This document shows positions 10,925 through 13,160 of a DNA stretch of 27,305 nt, in pieces; the stretch's first letter is position 1, and each line of letters starts with the position of its first letter. The notes below the pieces were generated by a model that was not told the origin of the DNA, searched no databases, and was given only the letters and a program-made list of their open reading frames with translations. The translations under genes and the position numbers were made by a program. This DNA comes from a virus, in the IMG/VR virus record IMGVR_UViG_3300020281_000107, positions 1-27,305 of that record; one strand, written 5' to 3'.

Positions 10925-11118
10925 AACTAGCTAGAAAATACGAAAACGAAATCAAACAAATCAAAGACGATGTGTATAGACTAGGTTGGTATATGCGTGG
11001 TAGTTTTACTTACGAAGATTTGATGTTTAGAATTAGTAAAGAAGACAGAGACATTATAAATCGTATTGTAAAAGATAATATAGAAGTTGTAAAAGAAACT
11101 AAGTTGCCTTTGCTTTAG
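10885..11118 (+). CDS. -1 frame extension of the gp26-like gene (tail assembly chaperone-type domain)
   Basis: A 77-codon segment in the -1 frame after Phe273 of the gp26-like protein, ending at TAG 11116-11118. It reads ...ELARKYENEIKQIKDDVYRLG, then WYMRGSFTYEDLM, then a helical SKEDRDIINRIVKDN and a KETKLPLL tail. The frame is open only from 10852, and there is no ATG until 10993, inside the WYMRG motif, so it lacks a normal start; a GTG at 10972 would cut off part of the domain. Fusion by frameshift gives a 350-aa protein. In lambda (G/GT) and P2 (E/E') tail assembly chaperones are made this way; applying it here is inference. Confidence 0.65.
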   Translation, partial: RSTIAPLEESGLLELARKYENEIKQIKDDVYRLGWYMRGSFTYEDLMFRISKEDRDIINRIVKDNIEVVKETKLPLL

Positions 11119-11129
11119 TTTCTTTTTTT
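11091..11129. terminator. Terminator built into two convergent, overlapping gene ends
   Basis: A 12-bp perfect stem (11091-11102 with 11115-11126, 12-nt loop) is followed on plus by more Ts (run 11123-11129). On minus the stem ends in a short T-run as well. The stem contains the stop codon of the plus ORF (11116-11118) and the stop and last codons of the minus gene ending at 11099, so one element ends both transcripts. Confidence 0.75.
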
Positions 11130-12106
11130 ACTTTTTTAATCATTTTCATTAATTTAGGATCATCTTTGATAATTTTCATTACATCTTTTTTGACAGCAGT
11201 TTTGCTAACTGTTTCTACAAATAATTCTTCTTCTGATGAGTTATCAAAGTTTTCAGTCTTGTTAGCATCACATAATTTATATAAATCAGGTTCTAAAAAG
11301 CGTCCATAGTCTACCATCTGCTGTTTACTTAAATATTTGCTCCTGAACATATTAGCAAGTCCTTCTGCTACTGCACTGCTACCTAGCACTTTTCCTAGTG
11401 CATAGAACGCTGCTTCTATTCCTATAAAAGAAATTATTCTAGCTATCCAACCAACAGCTGGTGCTAAAAGGGTATAATTGGCCATTAATTGTATAACTGA
11501 CTTAAGATTTTTTATCCTTTTAAGCTGAGTTGCCGCGGCCCCGCCGGCAGCAAACGATGCCGCTGATGAAATAAAAACACTGGTAACTTCCTCTGCCACA
11601 GCATATTGATAAGCATTAACTTTAGGATCGCTACCATTACAGCCTGCTTCAATATATACGTCATTAAATCTACGAATCATATTTCCTATGTCTTCGTATC
11701 CCATGTAAAGTTGAAAAACAGTACCAAGTCCTCTAGCTTGCGGTCCTATATACTTATAAAATTTTTTACCTAATTCTTTTATACCACGACGCTTTTTCGG
11801 CTTCTTTTTATCTAGATAATCTTGTGCGGCATCTTTACCTTTGCGTCTGTCAATATCAGTGGCTTTGTTGGCTTTTGCTTTTAGATCATCTACTGGCTTT
11901 GTAGTAGGAGCTTGCTTGACTGCGTTGGCTTTTTTAAATTGTTTTGTAAGTTTGTCTGCTGTAGCTTTTGCACGACTAAATTGCTTTTCACTGCCTACAG
12001 TGTTTCCATCTGGATTGATAATATTGAATACTTTGTCTTTTCCGATTCCAAACTGTTGAACCGTAAATTTTCCTTCATTTTCAGATAATATTTCACTTAC
12101 AAACAT
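11099..12106 (-). CDS. Hypothetical protein with basic linker and hydrophobic segments
   Basis: A 335-aa protein starting MFVSEILSENEGKFTVQQFG. Residues 1-40 look like a small beta domain (DKVFNIINPDGNTVGSEKQF). Residues 41-115 are Lys-rich, with KKPKKRRGIKELGKKFYKY. Two apolar stretches, about 172-193 (VTSVFISSAASFAAGGAAA) and 211-242 (LLAPAVGWIARIISFIGIEA), could cross or insert in a membrane. The C-terminus is Lys-rich. I do not recognise the family. A late box lies 22 nt upstream of the ATG, so it is probably a virion or late protein. Its 3' end overlaps the convergent ORF by 20 nt. Confidence 0.65.
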   Translation of the reverse strand: MFVSEILSENEGKFTVQQFGIGKDKVFNIINPDGNTVGSEKQFSRAKATADKLTKQFKKANAVKQAPTTKPVDDLKAKANKATDIDRRKGKDAAQDYLDKKKPKKRRGIKELGKKFYKYIGPQARGLGTVFQLYMGYEDIGNMIRRFNDVYIEAGCNGSDPKVNAYQYAVAEEVTSVFISSAASFAAGGAAATQLKRIKNLKSVIQLMANYTLLAPAVGWIARIISFIGIEAAFYALGKVLGSSAVAEGLANMFRSKYLSKQQMVDYGRFLEPDLYKLCDANKTENFDNSSEEELFVETVSKTAVKKDVMKIIKDDPKLMKMIKKVKKETKAKAT

Positions 12107-12127: not shown

Positions 12128-12136
12128 ATATTTATC
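12128..12136 (-). promoter_or_regulatory. Late promoter box GATAAATAT
   Basis: On minus the box reads GATAAATAT, with the start codon of the 335-aa gene 22 nt downstream. This spacing matches the late boxes before gp6 and the gp48/54-like gene. It directly follows the hairpin series 12137-12213. Confidence 0.55.
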
Positions 12137-12213
12137 AATTGCTACTTCGTAGCAATTAGTTTTCGCTTACGCTCAAACTATAAACTTCGTTTATAATAAG
12201 TGCGAAGCACTTA
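12137..12213. repeat. Series of small hairpins with TTC/GAA triloops
   Basis: Three short perfect hairpins have 3-nt loops: AATTGCTAC/GTAGCAATT (12137-12145 with 12149-12157), TATAAAC/GTTTATA (12179-12185 with 12189-12195) and TAAGTGC/GCACTTA (12197-12203 with 12207-12213). All have C-TTC-G or C-GAA-G at the tip. A fourth, AGTTT/AAACT, lies at 12158-12162 with 12175-12179. None is followed by a T-run. Confidence 0.75.
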
Positions 12214-12490
12214 CGTTTCATGTAGATTGTTCAGTCAGACGGAACCTAACTGCGGTTCCATCTACCTCAAGCTTCATGTGAGTTTGCACAGCCGAGATCG
12301 GAAGTAGGTGTTTGACTATGCTACTGGGCTCTGACCTTTCCCAACCTACGTCGACATCACACTTTGCAGTGCTATCCCTAGCTTCGTTCCTAGTGCTTAG
12401 GGTTTTCGTAGCATACAGCCTGTTGGACTCGCTAGTATCTGACGGCGAGGTACGCAGTCTCAAAGCGGATCATACGATCAACAGTGTCCT
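12214..12490. ncRNA. Large structured noncoding region, strand not settled
   Basis: About 280 nt without a credible gene, near 48% GC (e.g. 12361-12420), against 18% in parts of the neighbouring gp46. Perfect long-range helices form separate domains: CTGTTG/CAACAG (12420-12425 with 12479-12484) enclosing CTCGC/GCGAG (12428-12432 with 12445-12449) and CGC/GCG; TGCTA/TAGCA with CCCTA/TAGGG (12370-12413); GTAGGT/ACCTAC with TGGG/CCCA (12304-12349); and GTAGAT/ATCTAC with GGAACC/GGTTCC (12222-12265). Minus-strand transcription from the GIY-YIG gene is the simplest source. No own promoter or terminator was found. It is not a tRNA. An adjacent homing-type endonuclease raises the idea of an intron-like or mobile RNA, but no group I core is recognised. 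Confidence 0.55.
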
Positions 12491-12497
12491 GATTTGC

Positions 12498-12923
12498 CTA
12501 TTTGTTTTCTAGTAGTGCCTTACGCAACTTATCTGATCCGCCAACTCTCACATTAATAATTCCGTTGTAATAATCATCCGTCTCTAACACACGGCGGTCA
12601 AATTGTTCTCTAGCCTCTATGTAACTCATTTCTGCTCTGCTTTTGCAAAAATAAAGTATTTCTCTTGTGAATTTTTTTGGGCCTAACTTGTCTACATCCT
12701 CTTGTAATCTATCTGAAGATCCCCAATAGTCTCTCCAATCACTTTCTTTGTAGCCTCGTCTTTTATTTTTTTTGCCTTTTAATGGTGGCTTGGTAGTTTT
12801 AAACTTTGCTAGTTTTTTGCCTACATATTTTTGCCCGGTAGTGGTATTGGTAATAAGATACACAAACCCTTCATACTCTTCAGATATAGAGTTTATCACT
12901 TTACCGTTATAAGTCCACTGCAT
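12498..12923 (-). CDS. SegE-type GIY-YIG endonuclease-like protein
   Basis: A 141-aa protein. The GIY-YIG hallmark is seen as GFVYLITNTTTGQKYVGKK (about residues 19-37). A basic PPLKGKKNKRRGYKESDWRD and YWGSSDRL follow, with a later Glu in YIEAREQFD as candidate metal ligand. The layout resembles the T4 SegE-type putative homing endonucleases found widely in T4-like phages. It would cut DNA site-specifically and spread its own locus; whether it is active is unknown. It is the last protein gene before the structured noncoding region. It starts at an ATG 18 nt after the 72-aa gene. Confidence 0.75.
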   Translation of the reverse strand: MQWTYNGKVINSISEEYEGFVYLITNTTTGQKYVGKKLAKFKTTKPPLKGKKNKRRGYKESDWRDYWGSSDRLQEDVDKLGPKKFTREILYFCKSRAEMSYIEAREQFDRRVLETDDYYNGIINVRVGGSDKLRKALLENK

Positions 12924-12941
12924 GAACTTATATACCGATGC

Positions 12942-13160
12942 TTAGCCTTCTTCGCCTTCTTTTTTGGTTACACGACTTGTGTTGTGCTTGATGTGTATTT
13001 CATCCATACGCAACTTTGCAAGAGTTCTGATTTCACGTAACCATCTCCTTGCTTCTCTGTGTGTGCGTACAGAATTACGGCTTTCAAATTTTTCGTTAGC
13101 CTTGAAATACTGCATATAAGCCTGTGTCAACTTATCGTGTATATCGTCTTCTATACTCAT
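12942..13160 (-). CDS. Small conserved hypothetical protein downstream of gp46
   Basis: A 72-aa protein starting MSIEDDIHDKLTQAYMQYFK. It is helical and charged, with NSVRTHREARRWLREIRTLA in the middle and a Lys/Glu tail. Short proteins of this appearance follow gp46 in marine T4-like phages, without assigned function. The ATG overlaps the gp46 stop by 4 nt (ATGA), so it is translationally coupled to the recombination genes. A helper role in recombination or replication would be a guess. Confidence 0.65.
   Translation of the reverse strand: MSIEDDIHDKLTQAYMQYFKANEKFESRNSVRTHREARRWLREIRTLAKLRMDEIHIKHNTSRVTKKEGEEG

Follow-up and report, generated by a model that had tools for sequence, protein, structure and literature searches.

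The stretch of DNA analyzed here (the window) comes from an uncultured marine virus that infects bacteria. It is a linear virus record of 27.3 kb and carries T4-like genes for a portal, SbcCD, a late sigma factor, and a baseplate hub. The RNA described below lies at a locus with the gene order late sigma factor, SbcD, SbcC, a 72-aa gene, a GIY-YIG gene, the RNA, and a late gene. The genes and promoter-like sequences around the RNA are as follows.

12942..13160, minus: 72-aa gene, the usual upstream neighbor
12924..12936, minus: late-promoter-like sequence GGTATATAAGTTC, a predicted promoter just ahead of the GIY-YIG start, its position kept in relatives
12498..12923, minus: gene for a SegE-type GIY-YIG endonuclease of 141 aa, immediately preceding the RNA (PF19835, phrog_447)
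12128..12136, minus: T4-like late promoter sequence GATAAATAT of the 335-aa gene
11099..12106, minus: late gene downstream of the RNA, 335 aa, without a known family

The adjacent GIY-YIG protein matched PF19835 with an E value of 3.6e-33 and 114.9 bits (cut-off 25), placing it among the SegE-type proteins, and we could confirm the position between a SegE-type GIY-YIG gene and a late gene that a preliminary description of this DNA had given. In public phage records, GIY-YIG proteins of phrog_447 are often labelled "NAD synthetase." In Pseudomonas phage Deifobo (L359, Arenbergviridae), the baseplate hub, SbcC, SbcD, late sigma, and virion genes are ordered as in the window, and no GIY-YIG gene is annotated after SbcC. 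Elsewhere in the window, between the major capsid gene and an ORF at 326-787, the minus strand of 866-1248 holds a stretch of about 250 GC-rich nucleotides along with a sigma-70-like promoter (TTGACA-N17-TATATT) and a strong terminator; by its appearance this resembles a noncoding RNA gene of its own. A freshwater-2 RNA (RF02980, 70.3 bits) was found at 785-865 on the minus strand, in the 5′ UTR of the same ORF, and also in L296.

The RNA region was originally delimited as 12214-12490. The element itself stood, with its borders slightly shifted: conservation of the RNA starts at the GIY-YIG stop (12497) and extends to about 12216, beyond which lie four hairpins (12137-12213). As first described, the GC content is raised, at 0.48-0.51 across 12200-12500 versus 0.27-0.41 in both flanks, and there is no usable ORF; the ORFs there are short (81 and 66 aa, with TTG starts), and relatives differ through numerous indels, which vary in length. 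ARAGORN detected no tRNA or tmRNA. The minimum free energy was modestly better than chance on the minus strand (z −2.1) and less so on the plus strand (z −0.7). Since this folding energy is only mildly unusual, single-sequence folding would not decide the question, and the model of the fold below draws on comparison with relatives.

12216..12497, minus: conserved structured noncoding RNA, with homologues in many loci and covariation
12416..12497, minus: 5′ module, type C5, recognized from module combinations (A5, B5, or the Polynucleobacter-1 module in other phages)
12408..12415, minus: pseudoknot helix X, 5′ strand TATGCTAC, partner 12317-12324
12376..12402, minus: hairpin Pa, with the conserved loop ACTAGGAACGAA at 12383-12394
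12359..12372, minus: hairpin Pb, very variable in length, GCACTGCAAAGTGT
12344..12349, minus: helix Pd, 5′ strand GTAGGT, partner 12304-12309
12326..12346, minus: nearly invariant core GGTTGGGAAAGGTCAGAGCCC, with helix Pe (GGG/CCC) inside
12317..12324, minus: pseudoknot helix X, 3′ strand GTAGCATA
12304..12309, minus: helix Pd, 3′ strand ACCTAC
12272..12283, minus: twin motif copy 1, ACTC-ACATGAAG, changing in concert with copy 2
12235..12264, minus: hairpin Pf, TAGATGGAACC/GGTTCCGTCTGA, with the G-U bias given below
12216..12227, minus: twin motif copy 2, ATCT-ACATGAAA, changing in concert with copy 1
12197-12213, 12180-12194, 12159-12178, and 12137-12157, minus: four short 3′ hairpins, in relatives too, which possibly mark the end of the transcript

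The long-range, multi-helix pairing reported at the outset was found in the window and is kept in relatives through compensatory changes. The inverted repeat 12317-12324/12408-12415 is paired at 8/8 positions, and further inverted repeats lie at 12301-12309/12344-12352 and 12230-12246/12254-12270. In the A subtype, the 8-bp helix X crosses Pd to give a pseudoknot, with Pa, Pb, and Pe placed between the two X strands. Cognate strands paired better than permuted ones both for helix X (−10.1 versus −6.1 kcal/mol, z −14.3) and for hairpin Pa (−8.4 versus −5.6 kcal/mol, z −12.7). Double changes were seen in 6/6 pairs of helix X, covariation in 4/4 pairs of Pb, and compensatory variants in Pd (GTAGGT/ACCTAC and GCAGGT/ACCTGC). 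Among 17 aligned sequences, pairing held in 97.7% of cells compared to 79.9% after shuffling, with L119 omitted from the pair count, as an alignment that included it put its X strand wrongly. The covariation score for the 17 sequences was 0.492, compared to 0.165 in shuffles, which ignore relatedness among the sequences, and ≤0.11 in a slid control, which retains it. Cells changed on both sides numbered 65, compared to 18 in shuffles, and 0/500 shuffles matched the observed pairing fraction or covariation score. Unpaired loops were conserved as well. A 5′ hairpin (z −1.7) and a helix Pg (z −0.4) that were convincing by eye were unsupported under permutation, as was a hairpin spanning the GIY-YIG stop codon, and a GUC/GGC pairing seen only by eye was left out because it is broken in some relatives.

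Taken together, comparison of the aligned sequences shows an architecture of a pseudoknotted core (X, Pa, Pb, Pd, and Pe) followed by a 3′ domain (Pf and the twin motif). The preliminary description had called the strand uncertain, and hairpin Pf settles this point: among its 36 distinct copies, G-U pairs occur 34 times versus 2 for A-C, so the minus strand encodes the RNA, as it does the GIY-YIG gene. A conserved structured RNA is thus present on the minus strand at 12216-12497. The large noncoding RNA first proposed for this region is strongly supported by covariation, the pseudoknot included, and by conservation in relatives. The relatives showed no shared protein-coding frame, and those closest to the window retain the unit.

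We found homologous or allelic RNAs in about 250 uncultured viral loci, nearly all of them at one locus. A search with the GIY-YIG protein gave 80 viral loci, and a conserved noncoding stretch followed the gene in nearly all of those where the contig continues. When viral contigs were scanned with the 21-base core pattern, independently of GIY-YIG, at least 119 loci were recovered. Scans with the remaining cores found 73 loci for B, 40 for P, 25 for Q, and 16 for the CAGG variants of A. L240 and L254, from the scan with the B pattern, were judged to be chance pattern matches. Subtypes A, B, P, and Q were all found at the same SbcCD/GIY-YIG locus, with additional genes inserted in some. Eight large contigs (83-169 kb) carried one GIY-YIG gene apiece, and an A-type query found one RNA copy per A-type record searched. 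Fixed synteny across the subtypes rules out a hopping element; the fixed locus is a matter of lineage conservation. The RNA had no DNA match in cultured phages: one candidate match covered only a coding part of GIY-YIG, and another, of 39 nt (E 0.04), was judged a chance match. The RNA core also occurs in L201 and L202, contigs of a Neomarinimicrobiota metagenome bin that are probably binned phage contigs.

GIY-YIG genes are frequent passengers of group I introns, and the region had also been suggested to hold the remains of an intron-like mobile element. That the RNA is a remnant of a self-splicing intron or mobile element that once carried GIY-YIG is scarcely credible, however, as no Rfam group I or II model matched at E 10, there is no interrupted gene, the RNA lies between genes in all subtypes and at one fixed locus, and the compensatory changes show that the fold is maintained.

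The window RNA reached the gathering score of no Rfam family and had no credible match at E 10, including to the group I intron, GOLLD, and HEARO models named in the preliminary description. It did not match the Polynucleobacter-1 motif (RF01718) either at the 37-bit cut-off or at E 10. At the same locus in other phages, following GIY-YIG, RF01718 matched in L010 (71.8 bits) and L066 (67.4 bits), and it then matched in 14/14 further P-type loci (59.5-76.2 bits), i.e., in 16/16 tested. In the P subtype the model covers the first ~140 nt past the GIY-YIG gene, so the motif represents just the 5′ segment of a modular RNA that extends some hundreds of nucleotides further. Polynucleobacter-1 was tabled in 2010 as a candidate cis-regulatory motif from Burkholderiales, fresh water/estuary (Weinberg et al., PMC2864571), whereas the loci here are in viral contigs. 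Although the 5′ module of the window RNA differs and is unmatched by the model, P-type RNAs share its locus and likewise have a 3′ domain with a twin motif, a feature found here that lies outside the Rfam model; the link between the window RNA and Polynucleobacter-1 is thus drawn from the agreement of locus, 3′ domain, and module exchange. The models for GOLLD, ROOL, HEARO, and other Rfam families gave no match in the window RNA or the relatives scanned. GOLLD and ROOL are phage-associated RNAs. Like them and OLE (ornate RNAs, PMC12286853), the window RNA is large and complex, but it is smaller, is unmatched by their covariance models, and comes with no evidence of oligomers.

The modules also recombine among subtypes. 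By short patterns, which make the module counts approximate, the C5 module was seen with A, B, and Q cores and the B5 module with A and B cores. The 5′ and 3′ modules are thus swapped between phages, and the locus is fixed. Contigs ended ≤450 nt 3′ of GIY-YIG in 32/80 cases, compared to 4/80 that started ≤450 nt 5′ of it; either assembly breaks or exchange may be concentrated at the RNA. Both this excess and the module exchange would fit a feature that acts at the DNA level, for instance a hotspot for recombination or a target site of a nuclease, with inverted repeats that work as DNA, and homing endonuclease genes are frequent markers of exchange borders between phages (PMC10448857). We consider this reading very improbable, because G-U but not A-C is tolerated, and on one strand only, which is not expected from DNA pairing, and because the unpaired loops are conserved too.

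The association with GIY-YIG is close. The gene lies directly upstream in 114/115 A-type loci with enough sequence (among the matches listed), in 67/69 B-pattern loci (the two exceptions being the chance matches), in 37/37 P-type loci, and in 24/24 Q-type loci. This linkage, together with a short GIY-YIG nuclease that seems to have no separate DNA-binding part, would suit a single ribonucleoprotein in which the RNA guides or controls the nuclease, as in TnpB/IscB (HEARO), where a nuclease gene likewise sits beside a structured RNA. Against it, the RNA occurs without an adjacent GIY-YIG gene in L119/L275-L277, where it lies beside genes judged terminase-like from sequence alone, and in L286. 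Conversely, full-length relatives of the GIY-YIG protein, of the same size, are found in cultured phages, where the gap to the next gene is ~149 bp (Melnitz), 48 bp (ACG-2014d), 88 bp (S-SRM01), and 48 bp (a Rhizobium phage), and gaps of 48-149 bp are too short for such an RNA. Each is therefore found without the other, which makes an obligate nuclease-RNA system unlikely; obligate pairing was not observed across these loci. The nuclease fold also differs from that of TnpB/IscB, the RNA and nuclease here are separable, no guide region or mobility was seen, and fixed synteny suffices to explain the linkage, so that we regard one common ribonucleoprotein as decidedly unlikely. The adjacent protein resembles the free-standing SegE homing endonucleases of T4-like phages in belonging to PF19835; it differs from the cultured relatives checked in that these leave no room for an RNA after the gene. 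We know of no structured RNA that accompanies SegE free-standing homing endonucleases.

The main rival to a free RNA is a 3′ UTR element that belongs to the preceding gene and works only in cis, by affecting how stable the GIY-YIG mRNA is, where it ends, or how it is translated. Much of the evidence is compatible with it: in the contexts inspected, the RNA starts soon after a stop codon, be it that of GIY-YIG, of a small ORF (L119), or of a 341-aa gene (L282), and hairpins come after the RNA. Nonetheless, the RNA stays while the upstream gene changes, the 341-aa gene being inserted between GIY-YIG and the RNA in L282, L283, and L285. Nor would a terminator or a stability element need a structure anywhere near as elaborate and conserved as this one, and a 3′ UTR role leaves the concerted change of the twin motif, described below, unexplained. 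We therefore rate this explanation as rather unlikely. In L119, a consensus sigma-70 promoter was seen by eye ahead of the small ORF and the RNA, and another palindrome-rich noncoding stretch, also seen by eye, lies ~600-450 nt upstream of the RNA core.

A role as a cis-leader of the following late gene was likewise considered and rejected. At 179 loci with a long downstream ORF, the longest ORF was on the same strand as the RNA in 165/179 and on the opposite strand in 14/179, with ORF calls that are mechanical and may be wrong in individual cases. In 149/165 of the same-strand genes, TAAATA stood ≤60 nt before the start. Since a TAAATA promoter of the gene's own usually intervenes, and since 14 loci have an opposite-strand neighbor, the RNA is unlikely to serve the late gene as a leader. 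In relatives, the late genes after the RNA belong to different families and have a common MKxxEI-like start. Such starts recall T4 capsid-targeting sequences.

The 3′ domain carries a motif of 7-8 nt in two copies, one after ACTC and the other after ATCT, in the A, B, P, and Q subtypes. Among 257 RNAs we found 19 distinct 7-mer pairs, 16/19 of which were identical, and positions matched between the copies in 130/133 cases, compared to 89.6 (SD, 4.6) with permuted partners. The two copies agreed in 110/112 members of the A and CAGG sets. Variants include ACATGAA, ACATAAT, ACAGGAA, ACGTGAA, and ACAGAAA, as well as AGATAAT, AGATGAT, GAATAAT, and GCATAAT. A search for the complement of the motif showed no enrichment in the flanks and no consistent position within the RNA. 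Given this absence and the joint change of the two copies, the simplest inference would be a single partner that reads both. The twin motif could further be a site that tracks a fast-changing, phage-specific partner, making the RNA a two-handed adaptor or guide that may have GIY-YIG among its protein partners; this extension is quite unlikely.

Overall, we put at slightly better than even the chance that this is a free phage noncoding RNA of ~280-500 nt, a version of a modular class of which Polynucleobacter-1 would be the only described member. In the mechanism that we propose, the RNA would be transcribed together with GIY-YIG from the late-like promoter GGTATATAAGTTC, as the 3′ part of the transcript, and thus probably be made late in infection. 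Processing would then release it from the GIY-YIG transcript, and the freed RNA would act in trans through the twin motif, with the 3′ domain offering its two copies to one partner, which might be a phage protein that forms a dimer or a nucleic acid that is bound twice. A trans-acting phage RNA is, in our judgment, the best reading of these comparisons.

These results make an orphan Rfam motif of ~140 nt the 5′ portion of a longer modular RNA that a widespread, uncultured group of aquatic T4-like phages has retained at a single locus, and they give the subtype in the window a strand, a genomic context, and a consensus core. The concerted twin motif offers a concrete handle for a partner search, and if the RNA were indeed a two-handed adaptor or guide, it would represent a new class of phage ribonucleoprotein. 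Kept beside core replication and late genes, the RNA probably matters for infection.
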